In this document: positions 273 to 10,319 of the stretch, piece by piece
Layout of the letters: each line of letters begins with the position of its first letter
Position numbering within the stretch: position 1 is the stretch's first letter
From: Acidimicrobiaceae bacterium
Lineage (GTDB): Bacteria; Actinomycetota; Acidimicrobiia; Acidimicrobiales; Poriferisodalaceae
Length of the DNA: 64,000 bases
NCBI GenBank assembly: GCA_026713105.1
Contig: JAPOPC010000056.1
Span: forward strand, 1-64,000
Direction of reading: 5' to 3'
Program-made: the position numbers and the translations under genes
The notes under the pieces: model-generated
Database searches by the model: none
What the model was told of the DNA's origin: nothing
The model's input: the letters and a program-made list of their open reading frames with translations, nothing else

Positions 273-1292
273 TCAGCCCGCGCCAACAGCAACAGGCAAG
301 TACCCCCCAGCAGGCGTCACATCTTCAGGCAACTCTTCAGCAAACAGCGAAGCAGTGCCGATCCCATGCACCCCGCGCGGATCGATAGCCACAGCAGTGT
401 CACGAGCAACCCGCAACCCTGCCGGCCCGCAGATAAACGTAGACACCACTGACCGCACCCCACGCATGGCGGCGCGCCGAGCAAGGTCGTAGGTGGCATG
501 CGGACCACCCAGGACAGCAGGCTTCAGCACCGCCACATCGATGGCGCCCACCTCGACGAGCCGGTCGAGCGCGTCAGGGTCGCGCAGGTGTTCATCGGCA
601 GCAATGGGCAGCCCGACAGTCCGGCTGATCTGCGCCCAGTCCGCCGGCTGAGGCGTCGGTTCTTCGATGAACTCGATGTCGAGATGGGCGACAGGGCGGA
701 GGGCCTTCACCGCGGTGGATCGGTCCCAACCCCCGTTGGCATCCAGCCGCAGCGCCACGCCGGCGGGCAGGGCCCGGCGCACCGCTGCAATGCGCGCTGC
801 CTCGCTCGCGGCAGTAGCCGCCGCAGCGTCGCCGCCCGGATCACGCGCGGCAACCTTCAGCTTCACCGCCAGATGCCCCGTAGCAGCAGCCCGCGCAGCT
901 CGCTGAGCCGCAGCTTCAGGATCCAGGTCGGATACCAGTGCATGCGTCGCGATGCGCCGCTGTGTGGGTGCCTCCCCCGCGAGCAACGTGGCCAGCGTGA
1001 CCCCCTCGATCTCAGCGTCAAGCTGCGTCAGCGCCGATTCCACCGCAGCAGCAGCGCAAGGTTCACGCGGCGGTTCACCCTCAGCAGGATCGGCTGCCCA
1101 GCGCTCGAGAGCCGCCAGCGCCTCGGAATAGGTCTCCACCCCGAACCCGGGCAGAGGCGCCGCCTCACCCCGACCAACGCAAGCGTCATCCCCCACCGAG
1201 ACCTCAATGCCCCGCCGCACCGCAATAGCCCCATGAGCAGTCAGCAAAGGCCGAGCTAGCACCAGCTCAAATTCCCGAAGGGTCGCCTGCAC
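273..1292 (-). CDS. menC: o-Succinylbenzoate synthase (MenC), enolase superfamily
   Basis: The predicted enzyme dehydrates SHCHC to o-succinylbenzoate in menaquinone synthesis, in the cytoplasm. The 339-residue protein has the enolase-superfamily barrel signature: KLK at 144-146, LDANGGW at 183-189, EEPT at 210-213, ADE at 232-234 and a late lysine at 257. D184, E210 and D233 are the expected Mg2+ ligands and the lysines the acid/base pair. Length fits MenC. It is separated from the other men genes by cdd and two unknown genes, but shares their strand. Other enolase-superfamily members, such as dipeptide epimerases, look similar; the nearby menD and menH favour MenC. Confidence 0.85.
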   Translation of the reverse strand: MQATLREFELVLARPLLTAHGAIAVRRGIEVSVGDDACVGRGEAAPLPGFGVETYSEALAALERWAADPAEGEPPREPCAAAAVESALTQLDAEIEGVTLATLLAGEAPTQRRIATHALVSDLDPEAAAQRAARAAATGHLAVKLKVAARDPGGDAAAATAASEAARIAAVRRALPAGVALRLDANGGWDRSTAVKALRPVAHLDIEFIEEPTPQPADWAQISRTVGLPIAADEHLRDPDALDRLVEVGAIDVAVLKPAVLGGPHATYDLARRAAMRGVRSVVSTFICGPAGLRVARDTAVAIDPRGVHGIGTASLFAEELPEDVTPAGGYLPVAVGAG

Positions 1293-1786: not shown

Positions 1787-1939
1787 CCTTGCCCGCCAGT
1801 CGGGCTGTGCGTCTTGGGTTCGCATTAGTTCAGCGTGTCAATTCACTTAACAAACGCTTAGTAAGGTACTGCCAATTGACCAATTGAAGTTCTGCGGCGA
1901 GATACCTCGTCCGGGTCTCAGGCCTGAATGGAGGGCACC

Positions 1940-2566
1940 ATGCGCTACCCACAGCATCCGAACGACCGACGGGCCCGCGGTGACCCGGTTCATCGACGCC
2001 GACGCCGCTTCCCGAGGATCAGATTCGGCGCTGCGCTGCTTGCGGCGGTTCTCATGTCAACAGCGTGGCCTGCCGCCGCATTTGCTTCGGGTGAGAGTCC
2101 GGATTCCTCGTCCGGCACCGGGCCCATCAATCCGGATTCGCTGGTCATCCCCGAGGGAGAGTTCCAGAACCAGTGGCCAGGGAGATCGTGCGAATTCGAA
2201 GCGCAGGCACACCGCGTTCACCCCTCCACCTTCAGGGGCACGCGCTATGCCTCGGTGCATGCTTACTGGAATCATCTCGACGGCGATTGTCCGGCGCGCG
2301 CTACGGTCACGGCGAATCTTCAAGCCAAGCTCTGTGCCGATGAATTGGGCAACAATTGCTGGTACCAGACGATGAGGTCGGAGAGCCGCAGGCTCAGGCC
2401 CGGTGGCGGCACGAATCATGAGACTGTCGCCAAGTACCCTTGCGCTTCGTCGAACCGTGCACATTGGCGCGTGTATGTGGTGGTCAAGGTCGAGATCGAC
2501 AATTGGTTCGACAAGTACGCAACGTTCACCTCGGATCCTGTTGCGATGGCCTGCCGGATCTACTGA
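1940..2566 (+). CDS. Secreted protein of unknown function
   Basis: I do not recognise this 208-residue protein. The N-terminus has many arginines, then a hydrophobic stretch ending in AWPAAAFA, which looks like a signal peptide with an AxA cleavage site near residue 50. The n-region is unusually long and Arg-rich. The mature part of about 160 residues carries six cysteines and many aromatic residues, as expected for an exported, disulfide-bonded domain. ATG at 1940 is preferred over 1928 because GGAGGG sits four bases before it. The next gene starts 24 bases downstream with its own strong ribosome-binding site, so the two are probably co-transcribed. Confidence 0.7.
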   Translation: MRYPQHPNDRRARGDPVHRRRRRFPRIRFGAALLAAVLMSTAWPAAAFASGESPDSSSGTGPINPDSLVIPEGEFQNQWPGRSCEFEAQAHRVHPSTFRGTRYASVHAYWNHLDGDCPARATVTANLQAKLCADELGNNCWYQTMRSESRRLRPGGGTNHETVAKYPCASSNRAHWRVYVVVKVEIDNWFDKYATFTSDPVAMACRIY

Positions 2567-2590
2567 AGCCTGTCCGTTGTAGGAGCCGCC

Positions 2591-3115
2591 GTGCCTCATG
2601 CTGATCGCGGAGACGCTGTGTCGGTCGTCGCTCTGGGTGCCTATTGCGACGTCAGTTGGGGACAAGTCTGGGTAGCCGACGACAACTTTCGCCTGACAGA
2701 GCCGGAGATGGCCATTGAATGCCTAGAGATGCCCGACGGTCGGCTCCGCGAGTACTTCCCGCTCTTGGCGGCGACATCTCCCGACCGTGAGCTGGTTCGC
2801 AAGCTCACACGAAGGATCGAGTTCCAAGTATCGGAATTCGCCGATATCGCCGATGGTCGGCGCATCATGCTCCGTGACGACCGCGGCTGGAATGCGGTGC
2901 TGACACAGAACTGGTGGCAACGGGCCACCCGAGAGCATCTGGCCGAGGAGACGAAGAAGGTTTTCGCTCGCGATGAGCATGAGGACATACGCGAGCGTAT
3001 GGAATCCCTCGGCATCGCGATCGATCCATTGTCGTTGAGGTCAGCACCGTACGTAGTCGAGTTCGGACCATTTGTCCTTGCGCGGTTGCAACGCAGTGAG
3101 TTCGAAACTCGGTGA
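2591..3115 (+). CDS. Hypothetical protein, 174 residues
   Basis: Unrecognised soluble protein with no signal peptide or membrane segment. The GTG start at 2591 is supported by AGGAG five bases upstream. It is rich in charged residues and has a central helical, Arg/Glu-rich part (about residues 110-140, including WWQRATREHLAEE). It follows the secreted-protein gene by 24 bases, so the pair may be an operon, but nothing visible connects their functions. Confidence 0.65.
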   Translation: MPHADRGDAVSVVALGAYCDVSWGQVWVADDNFRLTEPEMAIECLEMPDGRLREYFPLLAATSPDRELVRKLTRRIEFQVSEFADIADGRRIMLRDDRGWNAVLTQNWWQRATREHLAEETKKVFARDEHEDIRERMESLGIAIDPLSLRSAPYVVEFGPFVLARLQRSEFETR

Positions 3116-3219: not shown

Positions 3220-4026
3220 TCAGTGAGCGATGAGGTGCCGGCGGATGGCGGCTGCGCAGGCGTCGGGGTCTTCGAGATGGGCGGCGTGACCGGCATCTGC
3301 CACAACGGCGAGTTCGCTGTGGGGCAGCAGATCGGTCATCTCGCGGCCGATCGCGACGAACTTGGAGTCCAGCGCACCGCACAGCACCAGCGTCGGCACC
3401 GCGATGCCGTCCAGTCGATCCCACAGGGGCGTCATCGATCCCGTTCCCGCCGCACGCAGCGAGTTCGCCAAGCCGACAGGATCGCAAGCCATGCGCTGGC
3501 GGATGGAGGCCTGCCACTCGGCGGCGCTGAGCCGGGACCGCAACGTGTCCCACATCGGCAGTGCCACCCAGTCCTGCACGAAGCGCGCCAGGCCCTCTTC
3601 GCCGATCCGCTCGGCAAGCGCATCGTCGGCGGCGCGGCGCTGCGCGCGCTCGGCGGCGTCAGTGATGCCGGCAGTCGAGCTGATGAGCGTGAGCGATCGG
3701 CACACTTGCCGATGGGCCTCGGCTAGCGCCAGTGCCACCCGGCCGCCCATCGAGTAACCGACGATGTGGCACGGCCCCTCAGCCGAGTCGGCCGCGAGAC
3801 CAGCAACCGTCGCCGCCATGGCCTCGACGCTGTAGGGCGCAAGGTCAGCCGGCGAGGGGCTGCGCCCATGGCCAACCAGGTCGACGGTGATGCACCGGTA
3901 GCCATCGAGGCGATCGACCAGCGGTGCCATCGCGGCAGCACTCCCGGTGAACCCGTGGATGATGATGACCGGCGCGCCGCTGCCGCTCACGTTGGCGGCG
4001 AGCTGCAGCGTTTCGGGTTGCGGCAT
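3220..4026 (-). CDS. menH: Alpha/beta hydrolase, probable MenH (SHCHC synthase)
   Basis: Expected to release pyruvate from the MenD product SEPHCHC to give SHCHC in menaquinone synthesis. The 268-residue protein shows the alpha/beta-hydrolase fold: HGFTGS at 24-29 (oxyanion region), nucleophile elbow GYSMGGR at 90-96 with Ser92, an Asp in the segment CGALDSKF, and a catalytic His in DAGHAAH near residue 247. Its ATG overlaps the menD stop as TAATG, so translation is probably coupled. That position is the main reason to call it MenH rather than a generic hydrolase. Confidence 0.8.
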   Translation of the reverse strand: MPQPETLQLAANVSGSGAPVIIIHGFTGSAAAMAPLVDRLDGYRCITVDLVGHGRSPSPADLAPYSVEAMAATVAGLAADSAEGPCHIVGYSMGGRVALALAEAHRQVCRSLTLISSTAGITDAAERAQRRAADDALAERIGEEGLARFVQDWVALPMWDTLRSRLSAAEWQASIRQRMACDPVGLANSLRAAGTGSMTPLWDRLDGIAVPTLVLCGALDSKFVAIGREMTDLLPHSELAVVADAGHAAHLEDPDACAAAIRRHLIAH

Positions 4027-5918
4027 TACGACACGCTGGCCGCTGCATCCCCGACCGCCCGTTCGACTGCGCCGGCGAGGCGACGGTGCTGGTCCCGGTT
4101 GGCGTCGGCGTCGATGTCGATCGTGACGATGCGAAGGCCGCGCCCCGGACCGCGCGCCGCCAGCAACTCCGCGAGCTGCTCGCAGGAGTTGACGTGGTGA
4201 TGCTCGCAACCCATGGCCTCGGCGAGCCCGCGGGCCAGTTCGGCACTGCTGCGCCCAGGTGGCGTGGTGAGCAGCCGGTCGAATGCACCGGCATCCACGA
4301 CGCCGTACGCCGGCAGGAACGAGAAGATGGTGCCGCCGCCGTTGTCGACGACCACCACGGTGAGGTCGAACCCATCTGGTCGAGCGGGCTCAGCCGACTC
4401 TGAGTCGAACGCCCCGACAAGCCCGCCGAGATCGTGGCGAAACGCCAAATCGCCGACCAGCACAGTCGTCGCGGTACCGCCAGCCGCGACGCCGGCCGCC
4501 GCGGAGATCACACCGTCGATGCCGCTAGCACCCCGGTTGGCATGCACCGCCAAAGGCTCAGCGCGGGCTCGCAAGTACGAATCGACATCGCGCACAGGCA
4601 TCGAGTTCGACACAAACAGCGCACAACCCTCCGGAAGGCTGCGCCCGAGTTGCCGAGCAACAACCGCTTCCAGCAACGGCTCACCATCCAGCAAGCCATC
4701 AATGGCAGCAGCAGCCCGCCTATCAGCAGACGCCCAGCGCTGCCCCCACGCGCTGCCCACAGGGCTCAGCTGCGCTGCGGCATCAGCCAAGGCGGCAGGC
4801 CCCATCGACAGGTGCAGCGAAACGCTGAAGCTCGCATCAGTCCAGCCACCCGCCGGATCCACCAGCGCAAAGGCAGGCCGATGGCGCTCGATCCAAAGCC
4901 GCAACGGCTTGCAAGTAGGAGCCCCACCGACACGCAGCACAGCCTCAGGCGGCTCAGCATCAGCCCAAGCCGTACGCAGCAGCAAATCGTGATGGTCAGT
5001 AACAACAACCCCACCCAACTCACGCCGAAGCTGCGAGCAAGGCTCAGCCAGCAAAGGCCACCCAGTAGCCCGACAGAAATCCGCCACCGCCCCCACCCAC
5101 CGATCCCCGTCATGCATCGGACCAGCCACCACCACCCCACGAGCACGCCCACGAGCAAACGCCACCAGCTCCGCCACATCCCCCGCCGACACACCGAAGC
5201 CAGTCCCAGGGACAAACGCACGAATAGGGAGGGGAGGGGCAGGGGTCTGCGACGTTGCGACCTGCTGGATCGCGGGAGCAGAGCACTGCCCCTCCCCTCC
5301 CGAAACCCCGGGTGAAGCAACATCGCCAATCGACTCAATCGACCCAATCGGCTCCAAAGGCTCCAAAGGCTCCAAAGGCTCACGAAAAGGCACATTCAGA
5401 TGCACCGGCCCAGGATTCATTCCCGCCGCCAGCGTCACAGCCCGAGCAGCCGCAACACCGAACCACCGCACCGCCTGATCAACGGGCAGCTCCGAAGCCA
5501 CCGGCGTCTCACAGAACCAGCGCACATGACTGCCGTACAGCGAGTGCTGATCGATGGTCTGCCCAGCGCCCCAGCCCCGCAACTCAGGCGGCCGGTCAGC
5601 AGTCAGCACCACCAGCGGCACGCCGGAATAGTGTGCCTCGACCACCGCCGGCAGGTAGTTGGCCGCTGCAGTGCCCGACGTGCACACCAGCACCACCGGC
5701 CGCCCTGAACCCTTCGCCAGCCCGAGCGCGAAGTAGCCGGCGGATCGTTCGTCGATCCGCACCCAGGTGCGCAAGCCGGCGGTGGCGTCCACGGTGAGCG
5801 CCAGCGGCATCGACCGAGAACCCGGCGACACCACCGCATCGCTGATGCCGGCTGCAACCAGACCCTCACACAGCGAGCGGCAGGCCAGGTAGGCGGCGTC
5901 GTTGTCGGCGATCTGCAT
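4026..5918 (-). CDS. menD: SEPHCHC synthase (MenD), ThDP enzyme with an in-frame repeat insertion
   Basis: Couples isochorismate and 2-oxoglutarate to make SEPHCHC, using thiamine diphosphate. The protein is 630 residues. The start region is typical (SPGSRSMPLAL, an isochorismate/ThDP-binding motif), followed by WGAGQTIDQHSLYG, the ThDP-domain segment VHANRGASGIDG and VVDNGGGTIFSFLP. ATG at 5918 lies 8 bases after the upstream isochorismate synthase stop. Residues about 206-231, between the N-terminal and middle domains, are encoded by a dispersed hairpin repeat (5227-5301), preceded by short tandem repeats giving EPLEPLEP. These make the linker longer than usual but leave the frame open and the catalytic motifs intact. 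Confidence 0.92.
   Translation of the reverse strand: MQIADNDAAYLACRSLCEGLVAAGISDAVVSPGSRSMPLALTVDATAGLRTWVRIDERSAGYFALGLAKGSGRPVVLVCTSGTAAANYLPAVVEAHYSGVPLVVLTADRPPELRGWGAGQTIDQHSLYGSHVRWFCETPVASELPVDQAVRWFGVAAARAVTLAAGMNPGPVHLNVPFREPLEPLEPLEPIGSIESIGDVASPGVSGGEGQCSAPAIQQVATSQTPAPPLPIRAFVPGTGFGVSAGDVAELVAFARGRARGVVVAGPMHDGDRWVGAVADFCRATGWPLLAEPCSQLRRELGGVVVTDHHDLLLRTAWADAEPPEAVLRVGGAPTCKPLRLWIERHRPAFALVDPAGGWTDASFSVSLHLSMGPAALADAAAQLSPVGSAWGQRWASADRRAAAAIDGLLDGEPLLEAVVARQLGRSLPEGCALFVSNSMPVRDVDSYLRARAEPLAVHANRGASGIDGVISAAAGVAAGGTATTVLVGDLAFRHDLGGLVGAFDSESAEPARPDGFDLTVVVVDNGGGTIFSFLPAYGVVDAGAFDRLLTTPPGRSSAELARGLAEAMGCEHHHVNSCEQLAELLAARGPGRGLRIVTIDIDADANRDQHRRLAGAVERAVGDAAASVS
5227..5301. repeat. 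Hairpin repeat family 1, short copy inside menD
   Basis: The arms are GGGAGGGGAGGGGCA and TGCCCCTCCCCTCCC. The core holds CTGCGACGTTGCGACC and TGCTGGATCGCGGGAGCAGAG-like blocks shared with copies at 20439, 24727 and 50158. This copy lies inside the coding region of menD and keeps the frame open. The arms differ in sequence from the other copies but still pair. Confidence 0.8.
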
Positions 5919-5926
5919 GCCGCGGC

Positions 5927-7951
5927 TCAATCGTCTCTGAGCGCGTACAGCAGCGCCTCGAACTTGGTGGCGGTCTCGGCCAGTTCTGCCGGGGGATCTG
6001 CGCCGGCCACGATGCCGCCGCCCGCGAACAACCTGGTCTCCGACGGGCCGGTCAGCGCACAGCGCAACGCCACGCGGAACTCGCCGTGCCCGTCCAGTGT
6101 TGTCCAGCCGACTGGCGCTGCATACCAGCCCCGGTCGAAGCCCTCGTGCTCGGAGATCCAGTCGCGTGCGACTCGCCGCGGCAGTCCCGCGACCGCCGCC
6201 GTCGGATGCAGTGCGCCAGCGAGTTCCAGCACCGTCGAGCCGGCCGTGACACGCCCGGCGATCGGCGTATGCAGGTGCATGATGCGCCGCAGTTCCATGA
6301 CGCCGGTCGGTGACGGGGGATCGAGCATCACCCCGCTCGCGCGCAGCGTGTCGCGCACATCGGTTACCACCATCGCGTGCTCGGTCAGCTCTTTGGGGTC
6401 GCGCTGCAATTGGGCTGCGAGTTCCCGGTTGCGTGCGGGGTCGCGGTGACGGGGCTGCGAGCCGGCCAGTGCATCGGTTCCCAGCCGTGTGCCGTCGAAG
6501 CGCACCAGCCGTTCGGGCGTGGCACCCAAGAACGTCTGCGACTCCCGACCGAAGGCGAACGTCACGCACGATGGGTATCGCTGGCGCAGCCGGTCGAGCA
6601 CGGCGATGGGCTCGAGCCCCGAGGCGATGCGCAGCTCGCGGGCCGTCACGACCTTGTCGAGCCCGCCGTCGGCGATCCGGCCGAGAGCGCGCCGCACGAG
6701 CTGGAGGTAGCCGTCGTCGGTCTGGTAGCTGTCGCCGAGCGATGCAAGCACCGCTGCGTTCAGATCGCTGGTCGCGGGGGCTACGGCGTCGCCTGCCCGC
6801 TCAGCCTCGAAGAGCGGTGCGTCGCTCGCCCCCGGCGCGGAGATCGCCCAAGACCGCTGGCCGTGGCGGACCACGAGCAGTTCGGGCAATGTCAACGAGC
6901 CGGTGCCGAACGCCTCCCACGCCGAGTCCGCCTCCGGCGGGTCCGCGCTGAACGAGAAGCCGCCCACCAGCAGTGGACCGGTTGGGTGGCCGCTGTCGCC
7001 GGTCATTGTGACCTCCAGCCGGCCCAGCGTCTCGGCAACGGTGGCCCAGCGTTCGGCACCTGCGGGAGCCTCGGCTTCGAAGGCGCTGCCCACAGCGCAG
7101 AATTCCAGATCGTCCGCTCCGGATGCCCAGTACACCCGCTGGGGACCCTCGGCTGCGGCGAACACCGCGAGCGGGTCGGTTGCGTCGGCGAGCTCCCGGC
7201 ATTCCAACGTCACGGTGTGGGTGTCGCGCCCGCCGACGTCTGGCCCGACGGCCCCACTGTCGTGGTCGTCACCGGCCAGGATGCGTTCGGTGGCTCGTTC
7301 CACCAGCGACTCGCGGAAGTGCTGCGCCACCAGATCGGTGACCAGCGGAATCAGCCGCGCCGCCAGGTCTGCCCGCTCTGCCGCGGGCCGCTCGGAGAAT
7401 CGGTCAGCGAACAGTTCGACGGCATCCGCAGCGACCGCTTCCATGTTCGATGCATGCCGAAGCGCGAGGCCGATGAGATCGTCGAGCGGCATCTCGGCCG
7501 CGAGCAGCTCGGTGGCAGCGTTCAGCATCGTGAGCGCTCCGGAGCTGTAGAGCGCGTTATCGCTGGCGGTATCGCCGGCCGCCGCCTCGCCGACGTTGCT
7601 CACCGAGGGGTGCAGCGGCCGCACCAGGCCGGTGTCGGTCGCCAGCCGCACGAGTTCGGGATCGAGCCCGGACTGCCGCACCAGCTCGTCGAAGGTCAGC
7701 GTGTCGTCGTGGCGTGCGCCCAGCGCCCCCAGCATCGGGTCGTCGTGGCCGTCGCCGAGCTGTCGAATCTGCGCGAGCGAGAAACCCGCCCCTGACAGGC
7801 GCCGGATCTCGCCGAGCCGTCGCTCGTGGCCTTGGTCGTAGTGCGCCACCCGCCCCTCGCGCACGGGCGGGTGCAGGAGCCCGATCTTCTGGTAGTAGCG
7901 CACCGTGTCGACGCTCACCGAGTGGGCCGATGCCAGCTCTTCGACTCGCAC
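5927..7951 (-). CDS. menF: MerR-type HTH domain fused to isochorismate synthase (MenF/EntC family)
   Basis: The frame is continuous, about 674 residues from a GTG at 7951. The first ~70 residues are a MerR-type winged helix (VDTVRYYQKIGLL, then SLAQIRQL). Residues ~75-220 resemble the helical C-terminal region of actinobacterial MerR regulators. From about residue 240 it reads as a chorismate-binding enzyme: DKVVTARE (lysine base), FLGATPERL, LAGSQPR, LTEHAMVV, LHPTAAVAGLP, RGWYAAPVGW and LFAGGGIV. This part converts chorismate to isochorismate, the first committed step to menaquinone, and menD follows 8 bases later. An internal GTG before TLECRELAD could also start a free enzyme. The enzyme assignment is firm; the regulatory role of the N-terminal part is inferred. 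Confidence 0.85.
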   Translation of the reverse strand: MRVEELASAHSVSVDTVRYYQKIGLLHPPVREGRVAHYDQGHERRLGEIRRLSGAGFSLAQIRQLGDGHDDPMLGALGARHDDTLTFDELVRQSGLDPELVRLATDTGLVRPLHPSVSNVGEAAAGDTASDNALYSSGALTMLNAATELLAAEMPLDDLIGLALRHASNMEAVAADAVELFADRFSERPAAERADLAARLIPLVTDLVAQHFRESLVERATERILAGDDHDSGAVGPDVGGRDTHTVTLECRELADATDPLAVFAAAEGPQRVYWASGADDLEFCAVGSAFEAEAPAGAERWATVAETLGRLEVTMTGDSGHPTGPLLVGGFSFSADPPEADSAWEAFGTGSLTLPELLVVRHGQRSWAISAPGASDAPLFEAERAGDAVAPATSDLNAAVLASLGDSYQTDDGYLQLVRRALGRIADGGLDKVVTARELRIASGLEPIAVLDRLRQRYPSCVTFAFGRESQTFLGATPERLVRFDGTRLGTDALAGSQPRHRDPARNRELAAQLQRDPKELTEHAMVVTDVRDTLRASGVMLDPPSPTGVMELRRIMHLHTPIAGRVTAGSTVLELAGALHPTAAVAGLPRRVARDWISEHEGFDRGWYAAPVGWTTLDGHGEFRVALRCALTGPSETRLFAGGGIVAGADPPAELAETATKFEALLYALRDD

Positions 7952-8059
7952 CGCCTCAGCGTAGGCCCATCGTGGGAGTGATGACTCCAAGAGTCGGCAC
8001 TTCGCCGCCCCCGGATGCGTCCAAAAAGCGACCGGTTGGGCGGTGGCTAGGGTGGCTCG

Positions 8060-8662
8060 ATGGCAGAACGCGTGCGCCTGCGTGCCGACGACTGGGTAGC
8101 GGCCGCGCTGGACGTGCTCGTTTCTGACGGCATCAGCGCCGTCAAGGTCTTGCCGCTGTCCAAGAAGCTCGGCGTCACGCGGGGCAGCTTCTACTGGCAC
8201 TTCGAGAACCACGAAGCCCTGCTCAACCGTCTCCTGGAGGTGTGGGAAGACACCAACTCGGGTTCGATCATCCGAGCGGCGGCGCTCGAGGGCAGCATCG
8301 TCGACCGCTATGTCGCGTTGATGCGGTGCTGGCTGGGCTTCGAACGCTTCGACCCGCACCTTGAAGTGGCGGTGCGCAATTGGGGCCGCAGCAACCCAGA
8401 GTTGTGGCAGAAGCTCAGGGCAACCGATCAGCGCCGCGTGGATGCGTGCGTGGAAATGCTCGCTTCCGAGGTCAGCGACCCGGAAATGAGATTGCACCGG
8501 GCGCGCACCATCTATTTCCTGCAGATGGGCTGGTACGAGCTGGAGGTCGATGTGCCGATGGATGACCGCATCGAAGCGTTGACGTACTACTTCGAGATCT
8601 ATGTGGGCCGTGCGCCCACCGCTGTCGAACGGACGGAAATCCTTGCGGGCTTGCGCCGCTGA
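8060..8662 (+). CDS. TetR-family transcriptional regulator
   Basis: The 200-residue protein has an N-terminal TetR helix-turn-helix, seen in LSKKLGVTRGSFYWHFENHE (about residues 32-51), followed by a helical ligand-binding region rich in Trp and Tyr. It is divergent from the isochorismate synthase fusion gene (108 bases between starts) and points toward the mttB-like gene, 142 bases downstream. Either could be its target. The ligand cannot be told from sequence. Confidence 0.88.
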   Translation: MAERVRLRADDWVAAALDVLVSDGISAVKVLPLSKKLGVTRGSFYWHFENHEALLNRLLEVWEDTNSGSIIRAAALEGSIVDRYVALMRCWLGFERFDPHLEVAVRNWGRSNPELWQKLRATDQRRVDACVEMLASEVSDPEMRLHRARTIYFLQMGWYELEVDVPMDDRIEALTYYFEIYVGRAPTAVERTEILAGLRR

Positions 8663-8804
8663 CCATCAGTTGTTCATTCAGATATTGCGCAACTTGCATC
8701 GCGTTCATATTGACGTGATCCAAACAGGTCCGTACGGTTCGAGCCAGTGAGCAGCCCAGTGATCCCAAGTCTGATCGACATGGCGCGGCTATGGCGTAGC
8801 GAAG

Positions 8805-10319
8805 ATGGCGCGTCGAGGTCGTAGGCGCCAGGCCGCGACCACCGTTGCGCCGGCGCCGCTGGGCCAAGCACGCAACACCTTTCCGCCGCTCGAGCTCATC
8901 AGCGCCGACGAAGTCGAACGCATCCACGAGGCATCGCTGCGAGTGCTGTGCGAGATCGGCATGAACTTCCTGCTGCCCGAAGCGGTACAGATCTTGTGCG
9001 CGGCAGGTGCAAGCTCCGACGACGGCGTGCGCGTGCGGTTCGAGCCCGAGATGGTCACCGAGCAAGTCGCACTCGCACCGTCGCAGTTCACGCTGCATGC
9101 CCGCGACCCGGCCAACAGCGTTGTCTTCGGCGACGACTGGGTGGTGTTCGGCATGGTCGGCAGCCCGCCGAATGTGTCCGACCTCGACCGCGGCCGGGTC
9201 ACCGGCAACTACGCCGACTTCTGCAACATGCTGCGGTTGCAGCAATCGCTTGATGCCGCCGACACCTGCACCGGCCACTCCGTCGAGCCGATCGATCTCG
9301 AAGTGCGCACACGCCATCTGGACGCCGTGTCGGCCATGTACACGCTGTCGACCAAGCCCGGGTTCTGCTACTCGCTGGGACGCGCACGCGTCAGCGACGC
9401 CATCGAGATCGCCCGCATCGCCCGCGGCATCGACCACGACACACTCCTGCGCGAACCGTCCATCCACACGGTGGTGAACGCGAACTCGCCGCTTGTGTAC
9501 GACAAGCCGATGCTGGAGGGTGCCATCGAACTCGCCCGCCACGGCCAGCCGGTCGTGTTCACGCCATTCACCCTCGCGGGGGCGATGGCGCCCGTCACCA
9601 TCGCTGGTGCCCTCACCCAGCAGAACGCTGAAGCGCTTGCGGGCATCACGCTGTCGCAGCTGGTGAACCCCGGCGTGCCCGTCGTGTACGGCAGCTTCAC
9701 GTCCAACGTCGACATGCGATCGGGCGCGCCGGCGTTCGGCACGCCCGAGTACGCGAAGGCCACCATCATCAGCGGCCAGCTCGCCCGCCGCTACGGCCTG
9801 CCGCTGCGGGCCTCGAACGCGAACGCCTCCAACGCCCCCGACGTCCAGGCCGCCTACGAGTCGCAGATGTCGCTGTGGGCGTGCGTGGTCGGCGGCATCA
9901 ACTACGTGCTGCACGGTCTGGGCTGGATCGAGGGCGGGCTGTGCGCCTCGTATGAGAAGGTGATCATCGACGCCGAGATGATCCAGATGATCCGGGCGAT
10001 GCTGCAGCCAACGGTGATCGACGACGCGTCGCTGGCGGTCGACGCCATTGCGGAAGTCGGGCCTGCCAACCACTTCTTCGGCGCTGCCCACACGCTGGAG
10101 CGCTACGACACGGCGTTCTACGAGCCGATGCTGTCGGACTGGCGCAACTTCGAGACGTGGCACGAGGACGGGGCGCTCGACGCCACCCAGCGGGCGAACG
10201 GCATCTGGAAGCAGCTCTTGGCCGACTACGAAGAGCCGCCGATGGATGACGCCATCCGCGCCGAGCTCACCGACTTCGTAGAGCGCCGCCGAGCAGAAGG
10301 CGGCGTAGAGCCCCTCTAA
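8805..10319 (+). CDS. Trimethylamine methyltransferase (MttB)-like, non-pyrrolysine type
   Basis: The 504-residue protein is of the length and pattern of the MttB/MtgB superfamily, which move a methyl group from a quaternary or tertiary amine to a corrinoid protein. Recognisable stretches are RIHEASLRVLCEIG near the N-terminus, NANSPLVYD, VVFTPFTLAGAMAPVT and YESQMSLWACVVGG. There is no in-frame stop codon at a pyrrolysine site, so it belongs with the non-Pyl members; those studied act on glycine betaine or related compounds. The first 20 residues are basic and low in complexity. No corrinoid protein or reductive activase gene is nearby, so the substrate is open. The TetR gene just upstream may control it. 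Its stop overlaps that of the convergent ligase gene. Confidence 0.8.
   Translation: MARRGRRRQAATTVAPAPLGQARNTFPPLELISADEVERIHEASLRVLCEIGMNFLLPEAVQILCAAGASSDDGVRVRFEPEMVTEQVALAPSQFTLHARDPANSVVFGDDWVVFGMVGSPPNVSDLDRGRVTGNYADFCNMLRLQQSLDAADTCTGHSVEPIDLEVRTRHLDAVSAMYTLSTKPGFCYSLGRARVSDAIEIARIARGIDHDTLLREPSIHTVVNANSPLVYDKPMLEGAIELARHGQPVVFTPFTLAGAMAPVTIAGALTQQNAEALAGITLSQLVNPGVPVVYGSFTSNVDMRSGAPAFGTPEYAKATIISGQLARRYGLPLRASNANASNAPDVQAAYESQMSLWACVVGGINYVLHGLGWIEGGLCASYEKVIIDAEMIQMIRAMLQPTVIDDASLAVDAIAEVGPANHFFGAAHTLERYDTAFYEPMLSDWRNFETWHEDGALDATQRANGIWKQLLADYEEPPMDDAIRAELTDFVERRRAEGGVEPL

Follow-up and report, generated by a model that had tools for sequence, protein, structure and literature searches.

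Menaquinone (vitamin K2) is the respiratory quinone of most Actinomycetota, and its synthesis starts with MenF. To our knowledge, the transcriptional control of this pathway is poorly described. MenF and its relatives EntC and DhbC normally stand alone as enzymes. PutA, NadR and BirA, trigger enzymes or regulators made from enzymes, carry a DNA-binding and a metabolic enzyme domain in one chain. The same holds for BzdR, the nearest conceptual precedent for the protein described here (PMC3602430). Regulators of the MerR family such as CadR, CueR and BmrR have a winged helix-turn-helix (wHTH) and a dyad between the -35 and -10 elements, and activation by MerR proteins requires a promoter spacer of 19-20 bp (PMC9909328). 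Rv1828/FtsR of Mycobacterium and Corynebacterium act at ftsZ via AACCCTAAAGTAAAGGTTGAGGGTA (PMC6683498), and a review gives fatty acids as the Rv1828 ligand (PMC9909328).

The locus described here lies in the window, by which we mean the whole stretch of 64,000 nucleotides that was analysed. With the MerR family it shares the wHTH fold, the helix-turn-helix residues and a dyad between predicted -35 and -10 elements; it differs in a 17-bp instead of a 19-20 bp spacer, in a tandem double dyad and in the enzyme domain that follows the regulator. With Rv1828/FtsR it shares a homologous C-terminal domain and a regulator part of similar size, whereas its site is GAGT-N4-ACTC at menaquinone promoters, making the proteins kin by domain and not by target; comparison of the neighbour (menF) and of the site alone gave no correspondence to action at ftsZ via a 25-bp inverted repeat. 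The enzyme has the fold, the catalytic residues and the operon partners menD, menH and menC of MenF, EntC and DhbC but stands behind a regulator. By architecture it resembles a trigger enzyme, an enzyme and a DNA-binding regulator sharing one chain in which the functional residues of both are intact. Compared with PutA, NadR, BirA and BzdR, the DNA-binding part is of MerR type and the enzyme is one of menaquinone synthesis; unlike in BzdR, the active site of the enzyme is preserved, and the genome has no other MenF. We consider it probable (roughly 0.7), from comparison of sequences, that the protein is a dedicated autoregulator of the menaquinone pathway, probably a repressor, joined to the first pathway enzyme, which it would control. 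Our literature search, with subscription papers and unpublished annotation outside its reach, returned no description of the regulator, the operator or the fusion, and the regulator and its site appear to be undescribed so far.

A MerR-Type Regulator and MenF in One Frame

The gene and its menaquinone partners are laid out in the window as follows.

5927..7951, minus strand: merR-menF fusion gene, 674 aa, GTG start, one stop-free frame
7742..7951, minus strand: MerR wHTH DNA-binding domain, residues 1-70 (MerR_1 match; CadR structural match)
7274..7705, minus strand: C-terminal effector-type domain of the MerR part, residues about 83-226 (homology to the Rv1828 C-terminal domain)
7220..7273, minus strand: disordered linker, residues 227-244 (low pLDDT; length differs among congeners)
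5930..7219, minus strand: MenF isochorismate synthase, residues 245-674, fold about 245-672 (TIGR00543; E. coli MenF 3bzn)
4026..5918, minus strand: menD, the next gene after merR-menF (TIGR00173, 440 bits, cut-off 244.2)
3220..4026, minus strand: menH (TIGR03695, 222.9 bits, cut-off 208.55)
273..1292, minus strand: menC (TIGR01927, 147.6 bits, cut-off 130.55)

The preliminary description of this locus had proposed a genuine fusion of a MerR-type regulator to an isochorismate synthase, and this proved correct: in the unbroken frame, Pfam matches MerR_1 at residues 2-65 (1.8e-15) and Chorismate_bind at residues 413-663 (3e-69), and many relatives are fused likewise. In the AlphaFold model, the MerR part opens with the wHTH (residues 1-70), continues with another small HTH (about 84-112) and a disordered loop (116-128), and ends in long helices at 137-225, followed by residues with pLDDT <50 (220-241); by this prediction, the N-terminal MerR part is complete. 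Structure comparison of the predicted model placed CadR at Z 12.4 (rmsd 4.0, 103 residues aligned). Eleven positions of the wHTH (V14, D15, T16, R18, Y19, Y20, Q21, G33, R34, Y38 and H42) do not vary in an alignment of 73 rows. The helix-turn-helix, which is under purifying selection as described below, thus keeps its consensus, the loss of which had been named as a reason to reject the proposal. The rest of the MerR part is related to the Rv1828 C-terminal domain both by profile (6e-5 across positions 85-200) and by structure (5ydd, Z 9.5, rmsd 3.3, 121 aligned). The regulatory domain of Rv1264 was a further structural match (Z 9.0), to which we gave no weight because the domain is helical.

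The MenF part scores 294.8 bits against the curated isochor_syn model TIGR00543 (cut-off 224.75), and its model superimposes on E. coli MenF 3bzn with Z 46.5 (rmsd 3.0, 393 aligned). Residues K433, E480, E524, E656, E659 and K663 are unvarying in the 30 fusions, and the first five of them align with EntC and DhbC; in EntC/MenF, such residues serve as catalytic Lys and Glu and in Mg binding. The C-terminal part is thus predicted to be an intact isochorismate synthase MenF that converts chorismate to isochorismate. It is the only isochorismate synthase of the genome, where the sole other match is a chorismate-binding protein of 27% identity. An internal GTG had been suggested as the start of a separate enzyme form. 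This candidate was rejected because the GTG is found in merely five of nine congeners, with a Leu codon in the others, and has no Shine-Dalgarno sequence.

Several peculiarities of the neighbourhood and of MenF were also recorded. In the window's genus, a cytidine deaminase gene lies on the opposite strand between menH and menC, and in the window two plus-strand ORFs of 212 and 174 aa with no Pfam match (1928-3115) lie between menH and this gene; the ORF pair is absent from the loci of congeners. Other congeners (among them L081, L064 and L066) carry an Ala/Gly-rich insertion of about 20-60 aa between the MenF N-lobe and core, a variable Cys-containing loop with a recurring CATCGxADGSGVCGL-like motif that is absent from the window protein. 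Downstream of a separate merR, MenF and MenD are joined in a single frame of about 1020 aa at L129:5696-8755, as judged by Pfam and NCBIfam, and at L148:5708-8770, as judged by frame length alone.

Recurrent Fusion in the Relatives

We searched named genomes with the MerR part and examined the best 80 loci, nearly all from draft Acidimicrobiia genomes; nearly all relatives are uncultured. In all 80 best relatives, menF lies directly downstream of the MerR part on the same strand. The two are fused in a single frame in 30 of them (31 with the frame-broken L085) and separate in 49. The preliminary description had asked whether split relatives together with a sequencing error could account for the fusion; split relatives do exist, while a sequencing error or a chimera is ruled out by the single frame in many genomes. 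In L085, a congener, the merR-menF frame is broken within a low-complexity insertion, apparently through an error of assembly or binning.

Within family f1 (39 genomes), the single-frame fusion is found in the window's genus and in genera g3, g4 and g10, and genera g2 and g5 to g9 have the same two proteins separate, adjacent and codirectional. A tree built from the MerR and MenF parts, with the linker left out, requires at least four changes between the fused and the separate state, and fusion persists across a clade of 19 rows. For 46 of the 49 separate pairs, menF has a possible start codon that lies within merR, 4 or 10 nt from its end, so that fusion is a short step. Outside the order, UbiE (MenG) and/or MenF come next after MerR in 27 of 28 loci, and the 28th is at a contig end. 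One record labelled Deltaproteobacteria (L161, OFTM60) has merR upstream of menF and menD, which may reflect a wrongly labelled bin or a transfer.

A Putative Tandem-Dyad Operator at the Promoter

A conserved dyad was first visible in a promoter alignment of nine congeners. The site upstream of merR starts is a tandem, GAGT-N4-ACTC-N3-GAGT-N4-ACTC, which we scored on its 16 fixed positions with a threshold of three mismatches at most. By this measure it is present in the merR-menF promoter of 79 of 81 loci, 32 of them perfect, and none of 1620 dinucleotide shuffles was equally good; the fixed positions hold about 1-2 bits each. The following elements lie upstream of the fusion gene in the window.

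7976..8002, minus strand: putative tandem-dyad operator AAGTGCCGACTCTTGGAGTCATCACTC, 1 of 16 fixed positions off, the best match in the 3.96 Mb genome
7992..7997, minus strand: -35-like CCGACT, 17 bp before CACGAT, overlapping the first dyad (family consensus nTGACT)
7969-7974, minus strand: candidate -10 CACGAT at the family-conserved position (congener alignment, column counts)
7958-7963, minus strand: candidate -10 TACGCT, 6 nt before the GTG, in leaderless position (congener alignment, column counts)
8060..8662, plus strand: divergent TetR-type gene (TetR_N, 4.3e-9)

The family consensus, in which the promoter elements are predicted, places the second dyad between nTGACT and TAnaaT, the latter starting one base past the operator. 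In the consensus of 79 sites, the best -35-like hexamer is 17 bp from the -10. Site and start codon are most often 13 nt apart, and merR-menF transcripts may accordingly be leaderless. The promoter geometry is less certain in the window's genus, where the -10 at the family position begins with C; several congeners have a degenerate first dyad. The conserved operator falls inside 7951-8060, the region proposed earlier for binding, and the sequence thereby bears out the suggestion that the protein could control its own operon. HspR, a MerR-family repressor of Actinobacteria, binds the HAIR site CTTGAGT-N7-ACTCAAG, which likewise has GAGT/ACTC half-sites; the site described here differs in its N4 spacing, its tandem copies and its association with menaquinone instead of heat-shock genes.

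The TetR gene is confined at this locus to the window's genus. There, it and a trimethylamine methyltransferase gene (MTTB family) occupy 8060-10319 between an acyl-CoA ligase gene and merR-menF; elsewhere in the family the acyl-CoA ligase gene is directly upstream of merR.

In family f1, all zero-mismatch sites are at the merR-menF promoter, and we found no operator at menB in this family. When the bare pattern was searched in 296 genomes of the phylum, it returned four genomes. One was a known relative and one was judged to be chance; the other two lie outside the class and have merR-menF directly behind the site. Besides its merR-menF site, one of the loci outside the class (L215) carries another exact match at 10197, in the gap between the divergent genes menB and menE, and an exact match likewise separates menB from menE in a genome of the same order as the window's (G045); the site would therefore mark promoters of other menaquinone genes and not just that of the regulator. 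By sequence comparison, then, the regulator and its putative site occur across the phylum. Other hits were set aside. The next-best match in the window's genome (C57:1977, two mismatches) is inside an open frame of 1175 codons and was taken as chance, as were exact matches in G183 (L219) and G358 (L217) with no MerR/MenF match in the 6.5 kb read. Two g10 genomes have in common a near-perfect second tandem dyad away from merR-menF (G037:C16:14535 and G038:C198:4486).

Selection and Joint Loss

All parts of the fusion are under purifying selection. Median dN/dS in the window's genus is 0.23 for the wHTH, 0.11 for the MerR C-terminal domain, 0.23 for the MenF N-lobe and 0.14 for the MenF core, and in the second fused clade the corresponding values are 0.19, 0.16, 0.25 and 0.17. 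Constraint on the wHTH is somewhat weaker in the window's genus than in separate merR genes, for which the value is 0.06 and near saturation.

One genome has lost operator and DNA-binding domain together. In G015 (L067, G015:C32, 4330-4470), the operator is missing up to just before the -10, and codons about 9-72, which encode the helix-turn-helix, are missing too; the -10, the start codon and the remaining fusion frame are kept. This comes from one metagenome-assembled genome, and the double loss would be hard to explain as an assembly error since the deletions are in-frame and matched in function.

Possible Mechanism and Alternative Explanations

We propose that the MerR part would bind, as a dimer, the tandem dyad at 7976-8002 and would control its own merR-menF-menD-menH transcript, likeliest as a repressor. 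Repression appears the somewhat likelier mode because the dyads, which overlap the -35, occupy a spacer of normal length and not the longer one from which MerR proteins activate. Joining regulator and enzyme would fix their ratio at 1:1 and could make one part responsive to the state of the other, and the first pathway step and the expression of its genes could thereby be set together. Repression might be relieved by a menaquinone-pathway compound or a lipid bound to the Rv1828-like domain, or else by chorismate or isochorismate bound at the MenF site. Since fatty acids are listed as ligand of Rv1828, whose C-terminal domain is a homolog of the one here, a lipid or menaquinone-pathway compound is by analogy a plausible ligand.

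TetR proteins bind dyads of this kind, and in the window's genus the dyad lies between the TetR and the merR-menF genes; it could therefore be the operator of the TetR regulator and not of the MerR part. We regard this as so improbable that it can be discarded, because the same dyad precedes merR in genera, families and classes that have no TetR gene at the locus. For the same reason, the earlier suggestion that the protein also controls the divergent TetR gene is not supported, and the TetR gene is probably not why the operator exists. It is also improbable, to a lesser degree, that the fused MerR part does not bind DNA and is merely a dimerisation or allosteric domain of MenF. The G015 deletion would fit such a role in that the enzyme can do without the wHTH while the rest is retained, as would the relaxed wHTH constraint after fusion in the window's genus. 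However, the key HTH residues do not vary among the 30 aligned fusions, fused lineages retain the operator, and where the HTH was lost the operator was lost with it.

Sensing could take place through the Rv1828-like C-terminal domain, of, for example, a menaquinone precursor or a lipid, with enzyme and regulator independent and their fusion neutral, and to this we give slightly less than an even chance. This domain is the most constrained part of MerR in the window's genus, Rv1828 has been assigned fatty acids as ligand (PMC9909328), linkers are disordered and very variable in length, and one small change is enough to fuse genes that overlap by a few bases in nearly all separate pairs; yet the repeated changes of state and the persistence of the fusion in a whole clade suggest that it is tolerated or favoured. 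The MenF domain itself could instead be the sensor, chorismate or isochorismate in its active site altering DNA binding in the manner of a trigger enzyme like PutA or NadR. This is rather unlikely. These exact two genes were fused recurrently with the active site preserved, and in BzdR a shikimate-pathway enzyme domain was turned into the effector domain of a regulator (PMC3602430), but a conserved effector-type domain is already present in the MerR part, and the same operator accompanies homologs that are separate and have no MenF domain. Recurrent fusion does argue for a contact between regulator and enzyme. A more specific version, to which we assign a marginally lower likelihood again, is that occupancy of the MenF site would be relayed to the fused MerR part and so open or close the menaquinone operon, with the same complex forming in trans in species where the proteins are split.

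Implications

The dedicated, probably repressing autoregulator that we favour would give the menaquinone pathway of these bacteria a candidate regulator of its own, along with an operator precise enough for targets to be found by pattern alone. Since nature provides this protein in fused, split and HTH-less form, the coupling of enzyme and regulator at the chorismate branch point becomes directly testable.
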